A stretch of 64,000 nt of DNA from Entophlyctis helioformis. Its lineage: Eukaryota > Chytridiomycota > Chytridiomycetes > Chytridiales > Chytriomycetaceae. The translations under genes and the position numbers were made by a program. The DNA lies in assembly GCA_025526915.1 (NCBI GenBank), contig JAHLKH010000001.1, positions 124,001 through 188,000 of the forward strand. The letters run 5' to 3'. Below are positions 6,317 through 48,313 of this stretch, one piece after another (the first letter of the stretch is position 1; the number at the start of each line of letters is the position of its first letter). The notes under the pieces were generated by a model. The model was not told where the DNA came from and made no database searches. It worked only from the letters and a program-made list of their open reading frames with translations.

Positions 6317-6456
6317 GAGGCACCTGTGGTTGGCCAGCACATCGCGCCCATGGCCTGGCAGTCAGCAGCTTGCATAGACGGCCAGCGGGCGACTCATATC
6401 TGCGAGCGTGCGACCCACAAGAAGGAGACTTTAGTCAATGGGAGATCTCAATGAGG

Positions 6457-6515
6457 GGTGGGCAATAGGGCGAGGGATTGCCGGCAAACCGCCGGCAAAT
6501 GGCCCGACATTCAAA
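6457..6515. repeat. 59-bp dispersed repeat, copy A
   Basis: The 59 bases are identical, in inverted orientation, to 48255-48313. The core holds the perfect palindrome TTGCCGGCAA followed by a second GCCGGCAA. The copy lies between the 3' end of the FEN1-Fanzor gene (stop 6746) and the 5' end of S1P lyase (6316). Its left edge, GAGGGGTGGGCAA (from 6453), also appears at 16401 and 38959. Confidence 0.9.
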
Positions 6516-6745
6516 CAATTGCCAAGCGTTTTGGAATTGGATTCGACCCGAGAGGCGTCGAATGCAAGCAAGCACATCACACGATTGAAGGTTCGAGTCA
6601 GCAACGAGCATGCAACGACAGGCGGGCGAGGCACATCCAACGAGATGCTCACCTTGCACCATTGTTTGAACAATGATGTGATAAGTGACCCGTTAGGTCG
6701 ATCGGGAGGTGCCCCGATTCAAAGTGTTGGTGGTTGTGCTGGAAG
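6516..6745 (-). other. Structured 3' flank of the Fanzor gene: candidate guide-RNA region
   Basis: The 230 bases downstream of the Fanzor stop have no convincing reading frame. They contain two small inverted repeats. One has 7-bp arms ATTCGAC/GTCGAAT with a 9-base loop at 6541-6563. The other has arms CATTGTT/AACAATG with a 2-base loop at 6660-6675. The palindromic 59-bp repeat follows directly. Known: TnpB/Fanzor guide RNAs (omega RNA) usually start in or just past the 3' end of the nuclease gene and extend into the element end. That this stretch is such an RNA is inference only. Confidence 0.3.
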
Positions 6746-9700
6746 TCACATGGAGTGACGTGCTGTGTCCATGGAGGATGCTGCTGCGATGCTGTTGACA
6801 GGCTGACCGGCTGGCGTGTGCGTCAAGTAGAGCGGCCGGTGTCCAAAGAGCAGATGCCCCAGTGCGACCATTCCGATGTTGGTGGCTCCAAGCACGTCGC
6901 GGTGGTAGACAGTCTCGCATGGTATGCACTCGTAGCGTCGCAGGTTGGTGCGGTTCTTGTCTGGGATCCGTTGCTTGCACTGCGGGCACATCTGGCTGGT
7001 CAGGTTCTCGTTGCAGCGGTAGATCTGTGTGTGTGTGTGTGCATGATTGTGTCAGTTGGTGCACAGATGGATGGATGGATGGACAGTGTGGCATCAGACG
7101 CACATAGGCATATCCAGACGACCGCAGATGCCTGATGAGAAACCTCTCAAACACAGCGTGCCGGCCACCTTGGCCTGTAAAGTCGATGCCAAATGCCCAC
7201 ACAACGGGAATGTTGTCCTCTGTCGACTTTGTTCGGTCGACAGGGAGGCCTTGAGATGCAGCTGATGCGCGCTCTCCAGTGGTCGAGCCTGCCAGATTCA
7301 TGATGCCCTCAAGAGCGTTTCCGCGAATAGACGTGCTGTTGCTGCGCATGGTGAACCGCTTGGCCTTGACCTTCTGTGGAATGCCATGCCATGCCATGCC
7401 ATCCAGTGTAATCAGCAGGCGATCAAGCAGCATGGCGGCCATGCCAATGGACATCCAGAAACAGAGAAAACGTACCCGTGCATTCAGGAATGGCGTGCAG
7501 TACGCATGGCAGCGCAGATCCCAAAAGGCTCTCTCGCCAGGCTTGACGTTTGGATCGGCATGCTTTGCTGTCTTGAATGCAATGGCCTCGTGGACGTCCG
7601 CAGCCTTGGCATATCGATTGTTGAGCCTGGCGCAAGAGGCAGGCGCTGTGAGTTGATCTGGTCAAGAGTGCGCGTGGCAGAGTCATTGCATGCATACCAC
7701 CGCTGAAGGCTGTGCTCGGCTCGTGCCATGCCAGAGGAGAGCACGTAGTTGGCCTCGAGCGTGTATGTCTCCTCCTTGACATTGACCAGCATGCTGGACG
7801 CGCCATACAGGTACCGCTGGCCCCAATCAAAGCTGACAACGCGAACAAAGTCCTTGTCGGCGAGCAGCTTGTTGGCATCAGCAACATCGGGCAGTCGCTG
7901 CGATGCATTAAAGTTGCGCTGAGCCTGCCATGCCATGACATGAGTGAAGAATGCACAATGCATGTGCACCAATGCGCGAGGTTGGCATGCAAGTGGCTTA
8001 CAGGATTGGTTGCTTTTGGCTTGGCAGCTGATGGGTCGGCTTGATTGGCGGCTGTGGATGGCATGTCAGTTGGTGTGGACAACAAGTGTGCGTCTGCATT
8101 GGCACAGCAACTCACATGTGACATCCATGTGGTCAGGCTCGATAAATTGACCATTCAAGGCATTAAGGATGCCAACAGCAGCATCAGCAAGACTGGGCTG
8201 CTGGGCTGGAGACGCCGCGTTGGGATCTGCAGAGCAAGGCAGTGGTCAGAATCAATGCATGCACCAAAGCATCCAAGCACAGCACATACTGCGAGGCGAC
8301 TCTGGACGGTCTGTGCGGCAGTCCAGTGCCAGCTGATAGACCGTGTATCCATCCGTCATGATGCTGCCTTGTCTGATCACTTGCTTTGAAGCCACCAGAG
8401 GCTGAGAATCAACCGCAGCCTCATCACCCTCGGCCTGCGTTGGACGGCGTCGATTCTTGGGGCGGAGGCCGGGCAGGAGGATGTCAAGGATGGCCAGCTC
8501 CTTGCTATTGCTGAAGGCCGTTCGGATGTCATTGTTAGTCGACTCGAGAGTCAACGTGCCATCTATGTAGTTTTGGATAAAAGTGGAGTGTCAGCATCAA
8601 ATAGCATTGACGTGGCATAGACACATGCAACTTACCAACTGTGGCCAGGAGCTCCTCTTGCAATGCTTGGAGGACAGGATCGCGCTTGCCCTGGATGCGA
8701 TCCCTTTGCTGCCCCACCACCGCCCAAAAGAGGGTGGCCTCGGTGATGAGGACAAAAGGATCGCGGCTTGCTGGCTGCGGACAGAGCTTCATCACCGAAG
8801 TGCCAGCAAGCTTGAGGAGTTGGTAGAAGCGTCCAATGTCCGATGTTGACGTGCTGCGCACAATCGCCTGAATCGGATGCAGCTCTTGCGGGATCTCGAT
8901 GGCGTCCCCGTCCTGTGCGGCTGGTGGTGTGTCCTGCGAGGCATCCGTGGCGACAGGGGCAGTAGTCTCGTCCTTTTGCCTCTTGGATGCACTGCCATCA
9001 GTGGCCAGCAGAAGCTGTGACGCGGTCCGCTTGAGACTTGGGGCGGGAGGAGCGACATCCTGAGCGGCGTCCATGGCGTCGTCCATGGCGTCGTCCACGA
9101 TGGCCGGCAATGGGGCGTCCTGAGCAGCGTCCTGGGCAGTGTCCTGAGTGGCGTCCTGAGTGGCGGCACACCTGGCGACCTTGGTGGTCTCAACGGTCGC
9201 AAATATGGCATCGACCCACACTGCAATCTGCTCAGAAGTCGCAGCAGGCATTGCTCTCTGGGCTGCGACCAATGCCAGCTTTGACCGGTTCTCGATGAAG
9301 TGCTTGGCGAGTGTGGCGCTCACCTCCCTCGCCAGGTTGCTGAATATGTCGCCGCTCGCGGTCAGCAGGGTGTTGACAAGCCGATAGGGCACAGCTGCCT
9401 GCTGTGCATCAGCCCGTTGTGAATTGTCTGGGTGTGAGCTCGACCACCATCTGGTCGGATGCCGCGCGCCTGCCTTCCACTCGGCCTTCCGCGCGTCGTT
9501 CTTGGTCGTGCCCTTCTGCCGCGCGTCGTTCTTGGTCGCGTTGGCTCTCTTGGTCGCATTGGCCTGCAACGTGCTCGGCGTCCAGCAACGATGGATCATG
9601 AGCTGGGCGATGGTCACGAGCCAAGCATTGAGCTGGAGCATGTTGGACTGCGGCTGCTCCATCCCGCTTCCAGTCAACACATACGACACGTGCCGGAAGA

Positions 9701-12700
9701 GGGATGCCATAGACGACTCATCCGTCGTGATGATCGAGAGAATGTCATCCGGTGTTGGCACTGCCAGTGCTGGTGCTGCCAGTGCTGCTGCTGCTGGCTG
9801 CTCAGGCTTGCCGTGATCATCGGGCACAGCTGGCTGGGGTGCAACTGGTTGATCGTCGGGCTGCTTGGCGGTGTCATGCTCGGGCGACTCCAGCGACTCG
9901 AATGTACAGCACTCGAGTGTTGTACCCTTCGCCAGTTTCACTGGGTGCCCAAAGCGACGTTCCTGGCTCGTGTGGTTGTATCGACTCCGTCCGTACATGA
10001 CCCGCGCGGTGATGCCCTCGCGAAGGATGAACCGACCAGACAGGAGCTCTGCCTTTGTTACGCCACCAAGGCCCTTGATGATGTCCTTGTCGCCGATGTC
10101 GTCAAGTTGCTTGAAGTCGACATCCAGGAAGCAGTACCGCGTTGTCTGGCCATCAAGCCAGCCGTAGACATGGTACTTGGGCGGTAGGGGTGCGTCTTGA
10201 TCCAGCTCAAGCAGCTCTTCGAGGATGGCGCCAATGATGACAAGGCTGGCATGTCGCGCACCGACGGTAAACGAGTGCACCCTTGCGACGACGTCCTGGG
10301 AGAGCAGAGGACGCGTCCAACCTGCCGATGACCTGATGGCATGAACGCCAAAGATCGGGGCACTCTGCGGGCCACTGGACAGCATGTCCTGAGCACCATG
10401 CCAGCCAAGATGTCAGTAAATGCAAAGTCATACATGCATGTAGACAGGCAGAATGGTGATCCTAAATCGTACCTCCAGCTCCACTCTCATGCTACGATGG
10501 TCAGGTGTGTCTGCAGCAGGTGGATCAGGTGCGTCGGTGGTGGGATGGCCGGGCGCGTCCGCAGCTGGCTGTTGATCATCGCCGCTGGTGACTGAAGCAG
10601 GCTGTTGATTGTCGCTGGCGGTGGCCGCAGAGAGCGTCATGGGTGCCCCTGACATGAGGCGTCCCCCCTTTCTGTCAACCCGACGTTGTGCCACTCGTGC
10701 TCCATCTTTGCGTCTGCAAAGCCCACACATGTCAGCAAGCATGCCCAAGGCACATGGCACAGTGTACAACACGTACGTCTGCTTCTTTTTGCTCCCTGGT
10801 TTCTTCCGGCGGTCTTGCCGGCGTGCACTCTCCTTGTTCCTGTCGATGGCCTTGTCTGCCGCGGCCTTGGCAGCTTGCTTTTCGCGTTTCTGCTTGTTCG
10901 CAGCCTCCTGTTGCTTGGTGATTCGGCGTCGCGCCTGTGGAGGTTGGATGCACGATCAGCAATGCATTCCAAGTGCACACAATGCATATGCAAGCAACAA
11001 TGGAACACGAGAACTGACCGTCGTCCGGATGTCTGCATCGTGATTGAGATACAAGATCTTGCGGTCTGCTTGACCAGCCTGGCCGTCGGCGGATGGCGGT
11101 TCTTGCTCGGGCAGCTTGGGCAGTTGAGCCTCCTGTCAAGTGGAACAATGAGCAATCGTGCCAAGTCATTGCATGCACACACAGCCAGTGAAGATGAAGA
11201 CGCACCGTGGCTTGCTTGATGATGGACTCTAGCAAGTCAATGGCTGCTTCCAGCTGCTTGCGGCGTGTCACTGGTTGGCCATCCGTGATGCTTCTCAGTT
11301 CGTTCAGCCTGTCCACGGCCTTGTCGCAGATGTCGGCAGCAGTCAATGGGGAAACGCCTCTGGTGATGGCCTTGCCTTGATGCTTGACTTGCTGCGTGGC
11401 TTGCTGTGGGTCTTTCTGTGAGTCCTTCTGCGCTTCTGTTTCTGTAATGGCACCGTTCAGCAAAGAAGGTGCTGTCAGTACACGAGTTGGCATGATCCCA
11501 ATGCAAGCAGTACGTACGCGGTGTCGATAAGTGGCGGTGTGGTTTGCATGGACGATTGACAATCTTGCCCAACTGCTTCTTCATCCTTTCAGCAGCGCCC
11601 TGTACAATGAGCAGTGGATTGAGTTTGAAACGTCCAGGCGAGGAGTGCACATGCATCAGAGACATGCAGCAACTTACGTGTCCATCCCAAACAGCCTGAT
11701 CGACTGGCTCGAGCGTCGCGCGTACTGTCGCTGCTTGAGACTGCTCATGGACAATCCGTAACAGTTTCGAGCTCGCCGACCTGCTGATCTTGGCCAGAAG
11801 ATCACGGGCAGCAACGCTGTCTGGCATGCCAGCGAGGCAATCTGCCGCGTGCTTGAGGACACAGTTGAGAGCGATTGGGCAGTTCTTGATCTCGTCCAAA
11901 GTTGCATCCATCTCCCTCGCGTTGAGAATGTCGATGCCAAGCCGTTCGACGTCCTCCAGAGTCAGATGTACGGCGATCGAGTTGGGGTTGTGTTTCTGCG
12001 ACTTGGGGTGAACAAGAACGCAGCCGTCATGCAGCTGGCATCTGCATCACGATCCAACAATGACATCAAAATAGGAGCATAAGTCTGTAATGCGAGAACC
12101 CGCAGAGATCACATGCATACATACCGTTCTTGGGGCGTGGTGGTCGTGTTGGCAGCCTGGCTGCTGTCATTTCCACGTAGCAATGGATGGTCAGTATGGT
12201 GCTATGCATGCAAATGCATCCACAATGCAGCGTCCTCGAACGGTCAAGCAAGGACTTGCCTCGGCACTGGCGCGGTGGATTGACTGCTGTCGCCAGTCTG
12301 GGCGACGACCGTGTTGGCGAAAGCCCCAGATTCCTCGTGTAGGATGAAAACGGCAAAGGCGTTCAGGAAAGTTTTGGCAAGAGCCACGCCTCCAACCTTC
12401 AGCAGGTCGTTGTAGTACGCGAATCCGACAGTGTACGCGAAATCCATGGCCTCCATAGGATCGTGAAGGAGCGCACAGAAGTCGGCCGGGTTGTTGAAGC
12501 CGCGCTTCTTTGCTGCGGCGTCAAACTGCTTGTTAACGAACTTGACGGCAGCAGCAATGCCTGCAAGATGATATGAGTGGCAACACGAGTTAGTCAACGC
12601 CACAGGATCGATGACAACACAGAGCATGAAGCCAGGAATCGCACATACCTCGCCCGTAACAATCGTGATAGTCGTTTTTTGCGAGGGCGGCGACCAGTCG

Positions 12701-13648
12701 GCAAGCGCCTGGGAAATTCCGCAATCCCAGGGCAGCTGCAACGGTCGCAATGCCCTGGTGATTGTATGTGTGGATATTGGTGGCGCGGCCGCGGTACATG
12801 CGTGTTGTGATCACAGGACAACGTCCGGCGCAGTGGAAAATGACATCTGAGTCGTTGGCGATCACTGCCATGGGAATGTTGCTGTTGTGAGATGCAGATT
12901 GTCAGCCATCAATCACAACAGACAGATATCATGGTGATCTGTACCTTGGCTGGCTTGCATACTCGGCAGCGTCGCGTGCAATGCAAACGTCGGCCTCGTG
13001 GGCACACCAACAGACCCTATGCGGGGAAGTGGGTCCAAGCAGCATCTTGAGAGCCTCGGCAATGTGGCCCTTATGGTCGCGTGTCAACGTGAATGAATGG
13101 AGGAGGGCTTGCAGCTCTTTTCTGCAACATTGACTGTTAGTTAGGATCGCCACATGCAACACAAAGCAGGGAACTTGCATTGCTAGCTGTCTAAACCCTT
13201 GATTGGTTGCACGTTTGGCAAAGAACTGCTGGACCTTGGCCGCTGCGCGCAAGACGCTCAAGGTGCGGCTGGTATGCGCCTGCTGCTTGATGCCAGAGTC
13301 GCCGTGCTGGCCGTCGATGTGGAAGATGATGATCCGGCCGTCGCCGACCGACTTGAGGAATGCCTCAAGGATGGGTGCGACGATTGCTAGCCACTCACCA
13401 ATGGACGATGGCGGCTGAAGTGCGGCTGCTGCCGCGAGCTGCGGGTAGAACACACTCAGCACATCAACGAGGATGATGATGATGCTGGGTGCGGCTGGTT
13501 GATGAGGCTGGTGCTGTTGATGATGAGGCTGGTGCGGCTGGGTGGCTCCAAATGCCACGTCCAATGCATCGGACACTGTGCAGTCGGGGGGTATTGCGAC
13601 GCTGCAATACCCCTTCTTGGATACTTGGCCGAACTCGGCGATTCCCAT
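6746..13648 (-). CDS. FEN1/XPG-like nuclease fused to a Fanzor (TnpB-like) RNA-guided endonuclease
   Basis: Eighteen exons (13648-12945, 12881-12649, 12560-12260, 12163-12125, 12041-11678, 11599-11518, 11441-11206, 11132-11019, 10934-10777, 10713-10473, 10388-8636, 8562-8290, 8226-8116, 8051-8002, 7924-7698, 7626-7476, 7373-7104, 7024-6746) sum to 5586 nt, 1861 residues. Residues about 56-320 form a FEN1-type PIN nuclease with all seven acidic positions: D62 (ILVDV), D112 (HIDG), E218/D220 (HEAD), D245/D247 (NDSD) and D305 (KNDY). Residues about 730-757 are a basic NLS-like stretch. The C-terminus is a Fanzor: RuvC-I D1586 (SFDWGQRY), the rearranged glutamate E1775 (CNENLTSQ), zinc cysteines 1782/1785/1802/1805 and RuvC-III D1812 (HRDVLGATNIG). 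At the usual RuvC-II place stands AFGID, without the glutamate, as in other Fanzors. The 12259 intron uses a GC donor. One gene or two adjacent genes cannot be settled without cDNA. Confidence 0.82.
7025..7043. repeat. Short TG/CA repeat at the acceptor of the last Fanzor intron
   Basis: On the minus strand a CA run leads directly into the acceptor of exon 18, which starts at 7024. Confidence 0.85.
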
Positions 13649-14436
13649 TCTGTGTTGAGGCGAGTGGTGGGGGCGTCAGCATGTGGCAGTGAAGAGTGCG
13701 TGTCTGCAAGAAAACATGCGGCAAGAAAGCACGTGGCAGCGGCGAAACAGAGCGTGCGGCAAGGAGTGGGACTTACTGTGCGGCTGACAAGGTCTTGGGC
13801 AGGCGGCTGATGAGGCAGCAGTTGTGGGCTGGTTGTCTTGGGAGGCGGTAGTTGTGAACTGATGAGGTCTTGGGCTGTGAAGAGCGTGGCAGGCAGGGGC
13901 ATAGAACAGCGTGAGGGTCAGTACCAGCAAGCGCTTCTACTTCCAGCAGTGCATCAGTGCAGCCTGCCGTCTGTCGCTCAGTTGCGCCTGCATGCACACG
14001 TCCCTCTCCACCACATGCACACACAAACATGCCCACGTCCACGCCCACGCACACACACACACACAGACACGCAAACAGGCACACAGGCACCCAAACACAC
14101 CTGTCAGCAGCCGTGGGTGGTGCAAAGTGCAATGTTTGTCGGGATGGGAGAAACCCCAGAGCTGCCCATATCCACTATTATCGCATCAGATCCACCTGCC
14201 ACGTGGCAGCTTGGCCCAATTTTCCGCCAGCTTGGTTGGTGCCTTTGTTCGCCCACTTCCCGATGTCCATCCGCCCGTCGGAACCATCCGCCCATCAGCT
14301 GCCACTGTGTCGTCGCCCATGTTGTGCTCGCTATTGATGGCGCGCATTTGGGCAAGTGCCGCGACCAGATCTGGGCTCGACCAATCACAGCGATCCCACC
14401 ACCAGTGGCAGTGGCGCTCTGGCGACAGAGTTTGTA
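13649..14436. other. Intergenic region between two divergent genes
   Basis: This 788-bp stretch separates the starts of the FEN1-Fanzor gene (13648, minus) and the unrecognised gene at 14437 (plus). It contains a CA-rich block at about 14045-14100. A CAACACAG acceptor-like site sits one base before the Fanzor ATG, so a 5' UTR intron or an extra upstream coding exon is possible. The short frames inside are low-complexity and no protein family was recognised. Confidence 0.6.
14045..14100. repeat. CA-rich microsatellite
   Basis: Imperfect CA/CACG/CAGG repeats in the divergent intergenic region. Confidence 0.85.
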
Positions 14437-16183
14437 ATGGACAAGCAACAGCCAACACATGCCGCTGTGCACCAGCAGGACGACATGGACGCAGCAGCCA
14501 CCACAGAGCCAGCTCCCAGTCAAGCAGACCCGCAGGCCATCGACCCAACAGGAAAGGTTCTGGACAACAGCTTGTGCTTCCACTGCGACAATGGTTCATT
14601 CGAAAGCATGACACTGGTGGACAAGAAGAACCAAATACATTCGCTGCTGCCACTTGTCAAGCTCACAGATGGCCCGCGTAAAGGCGTCATATGCGTCCAA
14701 GTGTCTCGCCTCCCCTTGGTTCTGACAAGTTTCGTTCCAAGATGACTTAACAACAACGTCCCTGCTCTTGCCATCAAGGCGAAACTTGGCGGCCGTGAAG
14801 TATTGGTGGTGCTTCTCAAAGACATTGACAAGCTTCTCGTCATGCTCCCATGCCTCAAAGATCCCAGCAATCCTGACATCGTGATGCATGGCGTTGCATC
14901 CTGATCCCTCGTTCAAGAGCAGCGTCCTCCAACTCCTTGAGCACTATGCAAAGTACCGCGATCATCACAAAGTAAGTCTGATCACCCACAACGCACAATA
15001 AGCAGTGCAATCGCTCACTGACTTCTAAACCTCACACGGCAGTTTGGCGAGACGAGTGTCTTTGCAGCAGCCAACAACCAGAATCTGGGCATGCTTGTGA
15101 CACTTGATCCAAATGCAGAGCTTGCAGTCCCAGAAGGAGCGACCTTTACACACCTGTATGGTCGCGCGCTTACGTCCTATCCCGTGGAGCAGGTGAGCCT
15201 ACAAGCATGCAGGCGACACACTCTCCTTGACGATCAGCACTAACCATTGCATGGGACACAGCTGTTTAACGCATGGCGAGACAGTTTACGACGGACTGGA
15301 AAGGGCCGGAATGACAAGTCAGACCTGGAAGAGTTCATGTCAGTCACACGACAGATGCAACTCATCTTCAAGATCAGGTCGATGGACGTTGAGGAGCGCG
15401 GATTCCTTGTTGAGCCATCCTCCAAATGCTGGTAGGATATTCTCATAGGATGTGTATCCACTGATCGCACAGCAGACTGACTGCACAAACAGCACATACA
15501 CATCCTACGACAGATCGTACAACATCTTTGTATGGGGACCCATCAGCAATCCCATCCAGAAAGAGTATGCTGTGTACACCAAGGCAGTCAGGACAGAGGT
15601 TGACATGAGTGAGTAGAATTGCAGCAGGCATTCTCTGTGTATCGCCTCGACAGTTCTCAAAGTCAGACCAAGCCAAGCGCGATGCCTTACAGCAGCTCGA
15701 CGATACGCGGCAGCTCAACCATCCGCCGAGTGATCCATCCACGTCCTCGTTGGCGAGCTCGTCTGTGCGATGGCTGCCAACAGTTGCGACTCTGTTGACA
15801 CTGTGTGCCTTGACAATCTCGACGACGGCAAGTACATTGCGGGCGAGCCTGGAGAGCCAACCGTTGCTGTAGCTGCCACGCCAACAGCCAGCCGCCAAAG
15901 AGCGACAAGCAAGCGGAAGAGAGCAGCAGCTGATGCCAGTGAGTCTGTGTCGGCTGTGACGTCGCCCGTTCGGACATTGCAGCAGGCAGCCCCAACAGCA
16001 CGCACAAGTGCGCCGCCTGGATGCAGAAGGCCAACAGCTGCAACAGGCAGTCGCACGAGAGTTCTTGGTGACACTACCAACACGCAACCAACTGCTGCCC
16101 CTGGGGCAGGCTCAGCAGTCCACAAGCAAGCGCCAAAGCGACCACGACTTGAGAAGGCATCGGCTGCAGACCGCTCAGAGTGA
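14437..16183 (+). CDS. Unrecognised protein, head-to-head with the FEN1-Fanzor gene
   Basis: I do not recognise this gene. A consistent model is 14437-14700, 14779-14880, 14918-14971, 15043-15192, 15262-15431, 15493-15598, 15654-15764 and 15833-16183, giving 435 residues. Seen: a low-complexity Ala/Gln N-terminus, a CxxC (LCFHCDNG), a globular middle part (exons 4-6, including YNIFVWGPISN) and a Ser/Thr/Ala-rich tail with two basic NLS-like patches (SKRKRAA, KRPRLEK). Weak points: the 37-nt second intron is shorter than any other here, and exon 6 needs a poor GTTGAC donor. ATG 14888 is an alternative start that would drop the first two exons. An open frame on the opposite strand (14596-14916) overlaps exons 1-2. 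The position suggests, but does not show, a partner role to the nuclease. Confidence 0.5.
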
Positions 16184-16383
16184 CTGGGAATCCGGACAAG
16201 AATATGAAATTGGATTCAAAAAGTCTGAAAATTGGATGCCAAATTGAACAAAATTCGAGGCAAACCAGCCGACCAATCAGGTGCCGGCAAAGGGTGCTCT
16301 ATGGGAACGAAATCAATTACCCCCCCCTCCCGCGGAACGAGGCGGCATGGAAGTCTGGTCACGTGTGACACGTGACTTGATGT
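16184..16383. other. Short convergent intergenic region
   Basis: Between the convergent ends of the unrecognised gene and CMC1 there are 200 bp with AT-rich stretches and a C-run around 16320. No gene is seen. Confidence 0.6.
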
Positions 16384-16911
16384 TCATTGAGATGGCCTCT
16401 GAGGGGTGGGCAATTCACCAGTTGAGCTTGCAGCGGGTGCGGACGGCTTGGCAAAGAGCTCCTCGACGGGCCACTTTCCAATCGACTTGAGAAACTCTCG
16501 CTTCTTGAGCAGCTCCTCCTCGCGGAACCTGTCGAGATCAGACTCTGTGGTGTACTGCTGCACGCATTCTTGCACCTTGCGGTTCTGCTCGCGGCACATC
16601 ATGACGAGCGAGAAGGTACGGTGGCGAGTGCAGTTGACCAGATCTGCTCGCCCATCAGCAGATGGTAGCAGATGGCAGCGGATGGGAGAGGATGGCCGAG
16701 CATGGCCCAGCATCCATATGTCCATGCAGTCCACATGCAGTCCATGTCCAGTTGGCCACGATCAGTCGATCCATGTTCAACAGCAGTCTCGCTCAAGCGC
16801 TGCCCGTCGACGAATGCAGGCCAGACATGAGAACGCACCATCCAGGTAGCTTCTGCACTTGTCTCTTGCGCTCTTCTTGAAGCGCTGCAGAGCAACTTCC
16901 TGCATGTTCAT
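16384..16911 (-). CDS. CMC1: CMC1-like twin CX9C mitochondrial protein
   Basis: Two exons (16911-16839 and 16643-16384) join to 110 residues. The splice restores the first CX9C pair: KCRSYLDDLVNC is split by the intron, and the second pair is CREQNRKVQEC. It is followed by the RFREEELLKKREFLKSIG helix typical of CMC1. Known: CMC1 is an intermembrane-space protein imported through the Mia40 pathway that stabilises newly made Cox1 during cytochrome oxidase assembly. Start ATG 16911 gives MNMQEVALQRF, slightly short compared with relatives, so a small upstream exon is possible. The last codons overlap a copy of the GAGGGGTGGGCAA motif (plus strand 16401-16413). The WDFY3-like gene is divergent, 382 bp away. 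Confidence 0.82.
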
Positions 16912-48136: not shown

Positions 48137-48254
48137 GACTTGCAAGGCCGGCTCGAGTCAGCAACCTGCATGGACGTCCAGTCGGCGACGCACATCCATG
48201 AGCGTACCTCGTCTGCTTCGTGGCCCGTTTGGTTGATAAGGCGGAGAAAATTGA

Positions 48255-48313
48255 TTTGAATGTCGGGCCATTTGCCGGCGGTTTGCCGGCAATCCCTCGC
48301 CCTATTGCCCACC
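48255..48313. repeat. 59-bp dispersed repeat, copy B
   Basis: Identical over 59 bp to the inverse complement of 6457-6515. It sits between the divergent BAR and Vrl1-like genes; its TTGCCCACC end is 35 bp upstream of the Vrl1-like ATG. Outside the 59 bp the two copies diverge at once. Confidence 0.92.

Follow-up and report, generated by a model that had tools for sequence, protein, structure and literature searches.

In the chytrid Entophlyctis helioformis, a predicted gene that fuses a FEN/EXO1-type 5' nuclease to a Fanzor1-type nuclease is carried by a 9.9-kb multi-copy transposon, and the two parts probably act together in guide-directed cutting, 5' resection and homologous copying. The gene lies in the 64,000-nucleotide stretch of DNA that was analysed here as a whole (the window), and its parts are listed with those of the element in Table 1. 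Removal of 18 introns from the minus strand between 13648 and 6746 yields, under our splice model, a CDS of 5526 nt with 1841 residues and no internal stops. The continuous frame from the PIN/FEN part to the Fanzor part is present in the DNA, the introns themselves being predicted.

Table 1. Coordinates of the element, the gene and its parts in the window.
Feature	Position	Strand	Description
Whole transposon copy	6453..16329	-	About 9.88 kb; in gene orientation the 5' end is near 16329 and the 3' end near 6453
Conserved 3' noncoding region and terminus	6453..6745	-	17 aligned rows from 15 distinct copies; candidate guide-RNA scaffold
PIN/FEN-Fanzor gene	6746..13648	-	1841 codons in 19 predicted exons, with introns that recur in 10 paralogues
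Exon 19	6746..7024	-	Glutamate E1755 (CNENLTSQ), C4 zinc ribbon, RuvC III D1792
Exons 16-18	7104..7924	-	From the RuvC I region (D1566 of FDWG) to the former RuvC II site (AFGID)
Exon 13	8290..8562	-	TDG motif at aa 1458, in 8/11 copies, window included
Exon 12	8636..10388	-	aa 805-1388; conserved; candidate Fanzor REC/WED part
Exons 8-11	10473..11441	-	aa 556-804; weakly constrained linker; stop-free in 10/11 copies; mean pS 0.41, pN 0.34
Exons 5-7	11518..12160	-	aa 395-555; linker block, conserved; exon 6 has 149 matches in its own genome and pN<pS in 55/55 pairs
Intron 4	12161..12259	-	GC-AG, weak; if retained, stop at 12246-12244, just past the PIN domain
FEN/EXO1-like nuclease domain	12260..13489	-	aa 54-394; D62, D112, E199, D201, D226, D228, D286 invariant; weak XPG_I_2; fold matches
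Intron 1	13122..13178	-	57 nt; GC-AG in window and 4/10 paralogues, GT-AG in the other 6
Divergent second ORF region	14437..16183	+	Several exons, approximate
5' terminal 0.76 kb	15568..16329	.	90-93% identical in matching copies; ends in a C-rich tract

The initial annotation had united both nucleases in one frame, and that frame holds, being open over 1841 codons with the linker exons open in 10 of 11 copies. Its count of 17 introns and 1861 residues is superseded. Because the 57-nt GC-AG intron at 13178-13122 had apparently been retained, its residue numbers from E218 onward were 19-20 too high; D62 and D112 keep their numbers, and the later positions become E199, D201, D226, D228, D286, D1566, E1755 and D1792. 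In this revised numbering the residues examined in the window protein are D62, D112, E199, D201, D226, D228 and D286 in the N-terminal nuclease, and D1566, E1755, C1762, C1765, C1782, C1785 and D1792 in the Fanzor part. Two of the 18 introns (1 and 4) are of the GC-AG type, and the GC donor of intron 1 recurs in the four copies closest to that of the window, whereas the six that are more distant have GT-AG. A full-length protein search, with a reach of close relatives, found no fused protein outside E. helioformis among 7985 candidates scored, and searches with the Fanzor part and the PIN part had E. helioformis models alone among the matches listed (5 each).

The seven acidic residues of the N-terminal domain are invariant in 11/11 sequences (the window and 10 paralogues) and make up what we take to be the FEN/EXO1 (XPG/RAD2) active-site pattern. 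Pfam returned no match for this domain on the window protein, also when the PIN part was searched alone, and PDB sequence searches gave ribosomal and other chance matches. As these searches were uninformative, paralogues and a fold search were needed. The XPG profile search suggested in the initial annotation yielded a weak XPG_I_2 match in 4 of 8 family members (Pfam profile, best E 0.0053) and none in the window protein; the PIN alignment comprises eight rows, with L034-L036 left out. A moderate-confidence model of the N-terminal domain of paralogue P0006 has EXO1, a plastid exonuclease, XRN1 and T5 FEN as its best fold matches, with FEN1 lower down, and its fold alignments to solved EXO1, FEN1 and T5 FEN structures show sequence identities of about 9-20%. 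A FEN fold is thereby predicted for the domain at the confidence of this paralogue model. The earlier description of a complete FEN1/XPG-type nuclease survives at the level of the FEN/EXO1 superfamily, on the invariant acidic residues and the fold matches. Assignment as a FEN1 orthologue proper was dropped, since there is no recognisable FEN1 sequence orthology and FEN1 is not among the best fold matches. A PIN profile search of viral contigs gave no match.

The C-terminal half is likely a Fanzor1-type nuclease and is predicted to be RNA-guided. The Fanzor/TnpB zinc-ribbon domain PF07282 is recognised on the window protein by Pfam (E 2.6e-10, 40.7 bits against a cut-off of 26.3), and NCBIfam TnpB models match with E 5.7e-6 and 1.2e-5, both under their whole-protein cut-offs. 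The published Fanzor/TnpB motif, D-X(125,275)-[TS][TS]-X-X-C4 zinc finger-X(5,50)-RD (PMC3627910), is present in full as D1566, 191 residues, T1758 S1759, C1762 C1765 C1782 C1785, five residues, and R1791 D1792. The PF07282 match, which a zinc-ribbon profile search had been proposed to look for, the full motif and the invariance of the RuvC and zinc-binding residues in 11/11 sequences all support, at the level of sequence, the RuvC/zinc-ribbon call of the initial annotation. A TDG motif is described as characteristic of the Fanzor1 WED domain (PMC10711439); by the presence of this motif, the window copy and seven others would belong to Fanzor1. Profile searches found no known domain in exon 12, including a search with a six-row alignment from which L033-L036 and L041 were left out. 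Structure prediction for the Fanzor part, with P0001, gave no usable model (pLDDT 40, pTM 0.21).

Comparison among copies gives the gene its evolutionary context. The window protein was aligned to ten other copies with our own splice-aware script, which recovers the window model over the first 800 residues. Overall identity to the window is 46-93%, and introns lie within ~4 codons of the window position in 173 of 180 copy-intron cells, 144 of these within a third of a codon. The PIN-to-Fanzor frame is undisrupted in the window, L034, L037 and L039; the gene has 1-6 frameshifts in 7 of the 10 paralogues, with an additional stop in L041. All 14 catalytic and zinc-binding residues checked are invariant in 11/11 sequences. 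With pN<pS in 45/45 divergent pairs for the PIN part and in 55/55 pairs each for RuvC and exon 6, both nuclease parts are under purifying selection as judged from these substitution patterns.

If two genes were present, the boundary between them would fall within exons 8-11. These exons (749 nt in the window copy) have no stops in 9 of 10 paralogues, one stop in L041, and no frameshifts. The splice script penalises both stops and frameshifts, so the stop count is biased towards an open frame; as a control, the other reading frames of these exons contain 3-17 stops each. Substitutions indicate weak constraint on these exons (pN<pS in 51/55 pairs), and residues 672-745 of the linker form a basic tract with 39% K/R. 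An assembly error at the junction is very unlikely because of the copy number. The donor of intron 4 is GC in 8 of 11 copies; L042 has GT at the identical position, in L040 a GT lies about one codon off, and splice-aware alignment of the 11 copies did not find the intron in L041. Since read-through of intron 4 ends the frame after the PIN domain and the database gene model P0006 likewise ends in the read-through sequence, a separate PIN-only isoform is possible.

In its stronger form, this would mean that the locus makes two proteins rather than mainly a fusion, with retention of intron 4 giving the PIN-only product and a shorter transcript giving the Fanzor part. The immediate stop on read-through, the end of P0006, the predominance of the GC donor and the weak constraint on exons 8-11 are all in its favour, as are the database models, P0003 and P0004 among them, that begin in or near the Fanzor half. 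We nevertheless find it unlikely: 10 of 11 copies have a stop-free linker, the intron 4 donor of L042 is GT, and exons 6 and 12, which lie past the supposed end, are under purifying selection. The fusion could also be without function, in a gene that is passive cargo in decay, as the 7 disrupted paralogues among 10 might suggest. Against this stand the 14 invariant residues, none of which is lost in any of the 11 sequences, the excess of pS over pN in every divergent pair, and the four frames that remain undisrupted, which together make such decay very improbable.

The initial annotation had linked the gene to mobility, and we now find it inside an element that is present in many copies, 9 of the 17 tested being flanked by target-site duplications. 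The transposon family, the recurrence of introns in divergent paralogues and the divergent second ORF region of the same element had been missed. In the genome assembly searched (29.6 Mb, 482 contigs), the Fanzor motif pattern occurs at 213 places, against one for a backwards control, and the linker exon (exon 6) has 149 own-genome matches. Pairing used 100 of the 213 motif places and 125 of the 149 linker places; of the 100 motif places listed, 53 are preceded on their own strand by the linker exon at a distance of 4.3-7.6 kb and 47 are not. At no fewer than 89 of 124 linker places, a PIN match of the same orientation lies up to 4 kb upstream, a lower bound because these were compared with part of the 229 PIN matches, and none of the matches listed is placed otherwise within 4 kb.

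The copies share a 3' end at ~6453 in 14 of 16 cases and a 5' end near 16329 in 12 of 14; in L041 and L042 similarity is lost ~47 bp short of the 3' end. At nine of 17 copies, 7-9 of 9 flanking bases match as expected for a 9-bp target-site duplication (8-9 bases in five), while mispaired controls gave 7 matches in 8/272 and 8-9 matches in 0/272. The duplication was not found at the other 8 of the 17, window copy included. This set of 17 leaves out C50, C53, C162, C333 and C418, in which one end is unrecognisable, and C298 and C22, in which the 5' end is unread. At C82 a longer flanking repeat is visible by eye and was missed by the 9-base scan. Possible terminal inverted repeats are short, imperfect GAGGGG-type ends noticed by eye. 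The second ORF region gave no match to a known domain or family, and its frame differs among copies. No transposase domain was recognised in the element, and the MULE transposase PF10551, the one transposase family searched for, had no match in the genome (exon by exon, six frames) or in the element. These features fit a many-copy DNA transposon with 9-bp duplications, of the kind known from MuDR-like Fanzor elements that lack a transposase (PMC3627910).

For the 3' noncoding region, 32 loci besides the window were considered and 16 passed the length and coverage limits, L005 and L008 being repeats of L039 and L056. With L035, which has a different terminus, also dropped, the consensus fold of the 14 remaining copies is weak (z -1.84 sense, -2.88 antisense), and the region has no Rfam match.

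Divergence is distributed unevenly along the element. Across 45 divergent copy pairs, mean pS is 0.67 in the PIN part, 0.57 in exon 12 and 0.17 in RuvC, and the nearest neighbours of copies mostly differ from one gene part to another. In L038-L042, DNA identity is 83-88% over the final 1.6 kb of the gene, and the centre is 65-75% identical or unalignable. At the other end, the identity given in Table 1 for the 5' terminal 0.76 kb comes from the matching copies among 40 candidates scored out of 101. Recombination from the ends is proposed because the Fanzor C-terminus is alike in copies that are highly divergent elsewhere; recombination between copies, working inwards from the ends, would leave such a pattern.

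In the mechanism that we favour, a guide RNA would derive from the 3' end of the element, and the Fanzor part would break guide-matched DNA. The break may leave 5' overhangs, by analogy with the chytrid Fanzor SpuFz1, which cuts in this way in vitro (PMC10432273). The tethered EXO1/FEN-like nuclease would then resect or trim the broken 5' ends, and the resulting 3' single strands could enter homologous recombination with another copy, by which the element would be copied or its ends homogenised. In the same study, Fanzor breaks are put forward as a possible aid to the copying, and hence the spread, of single-stranded transposons, in the manner of TnpB (PMC10432273). Initial insertion with 9-bp duplications probably depends on a transposase supplied in trans. 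More tentatively, the protein may be a single-chain cut-and-resect machine, in which covalent coupling of the Fanzor break to EXO1/FEN-like 5' resection forces homologous copying and homogenises the element's own copies as a by-product.

The similar ends may, alternatively, reflect ordinary ectopic recombination among repeats, independent of the nucleases and compatible with a real fusion. The high copy number offers many templates for it. Against it, though not decisively, similarity peaks at both element ends around a centre that differs, which is what breaks near the ends would give. We hold this to be a serious possibility, if somewhat less than probable. It is quite improbable that the two nucleases themselves excise and insert the element in place of the missing transposase. 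Such a role would agree with the lack of a recognised transposase domain in the element and of MULE matches in the genome, a search of a single transposase family. However, DDE transposases leave fixed 9-bp duplications, so that those found here are typical of such enzymes, and known Fanzor elements whose ends are MuDR-like and whose duplications are 9 bp long also encode no transposase (PMC3627910).

Coupling a programmable cutter to a nuclease that processes the ends is a concept of genome engineering, and nature has apparently produced such a fusion and maintained it by selection across many copies. If active, the protein would reveal one way in which an RNA-guided nuclease of eukaryotes helps its own element to spread, a question left open in the Fanzor literature examined. 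The family also contains many naturally occurring variants in which the halves are shuffled. The initial annotation knew of no described FEN1-Fanzor fusion; a full-text literature search, whose reach excluded most subscription papers and preprints, likewise found no Fanzor fused to a FEN/XPG nuclease.

Several known systems resemble parts of the element. In SpuFz1 the RuvC glutamate is relocated, as in the present Fanzor. AcademX transposons are DNA transposons with an XPG-like nuclease and, to our knowledge, without a Fanzor. EXO1, FEN1 and T5 FEN are among the fold matches of the N-terminal domain (FEN1 lower) and have a similar set of acidic residues; they differ in that identity is about 9-20%, the window protein has no Pfam match, and the present domain is transposon-borne. 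SpuFz1/SPu-1 of Spizellomyces punctatus is likewise a Fanzor1 from a chytrid, carried by a multi-copy element and bearing the D ... TS-xx-C4 ... RD motif, and the ends of its element are inverted (PMC10432273, PMC3627910), but SPu-1-1p has 633 aa in a single ORF within a ~2.1-kb element (PMC3627910), whereas the present protein has 1841 aa, is encoded by an intron-rich gene and bears an N-terminal nuclease. In MCi-2 of Mucor circinelloides, the 3' Fanzor part hardly varies among copies and the 5' side differs, as here, but the duplications are 11-12 bp, there are no recognisable inverted ends, and no fused nuclease is mentioned in its description (PMC3627910). Closest in transposon type are the Fanzor elements of Bao and Jurka that have MuDR-like ends, leave 9-bp duplications and lack a transposase (PMC3627910). 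Among these, ROr-4, PBl-3 and MCi-4 are Fanzor1 elements for which term searches of that paper gave no XPG or fused FEN-type nuclease, whereas the present Fanzor is fused and its family is large. What is new here, as read from the predicted protein, is the covalent end-processing partner on a Fanzor.

Gene models of the fusion family that were located among public E. helioformis annotations (P0001-P0010) are fragmentary. Several of them lose the reading frame, in one case at the GC-AG intron 4 of the predicted PIN/FEN-Fanzor gene, which probably explains why the fusion has gone without annotation. The element also carries a divergent second ORF region, multi-exon and conserved among copies; the copies differ in its reading frame, and a domain search of this region revealed no known domain.

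Element-related features of the window
Feature	Position
Divergent second ORF region	14437-16183
Region corresponding to the short 3' pieces	7249-6497
15-base match to the element's 3' terminus	16400-16414
Isolated copy of the element's 3' end	48249-48313

At three of the first eight loci matching the Fanzor motif (L001, L003, and L007), all that is present of the element is a short piece from its 3' part, 86-92% identical and roughly 0.43-0.7 kb long. The pieces span RuvC II to the zinc ribbon, intron included, and two of the three start at the identical base; the piece at L001 additionally contains the element's 3' noncoding part. L003 and L083 are one locus, as are L007 and L084, and the latter also has ∼0.3 kb resembling the 5' part of the element locus L042, with other sequence in between. 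The flank past the 3' end is common to L036 (contig C298) and L064 (contig C162), and some copies may therefore be allelic contigs or parts of larger duplications, in which case copy numbers may be slightly overestimated.

Sequences of the element's 3' end also occur elsewhere in the window. The 15-base match, ∼70 bp outside the element's 5' end, is identical to the 3' terminus plus the next flanking base, and chance, an old insertion, and target preference are candidate readings. When the rest of the window was compared with the element, no further part matched besides the isolated 65-bp copy (98% identity). This copy could be a relic, or possibly a guide-RNA-only ghost locus as in Spizellomyces.
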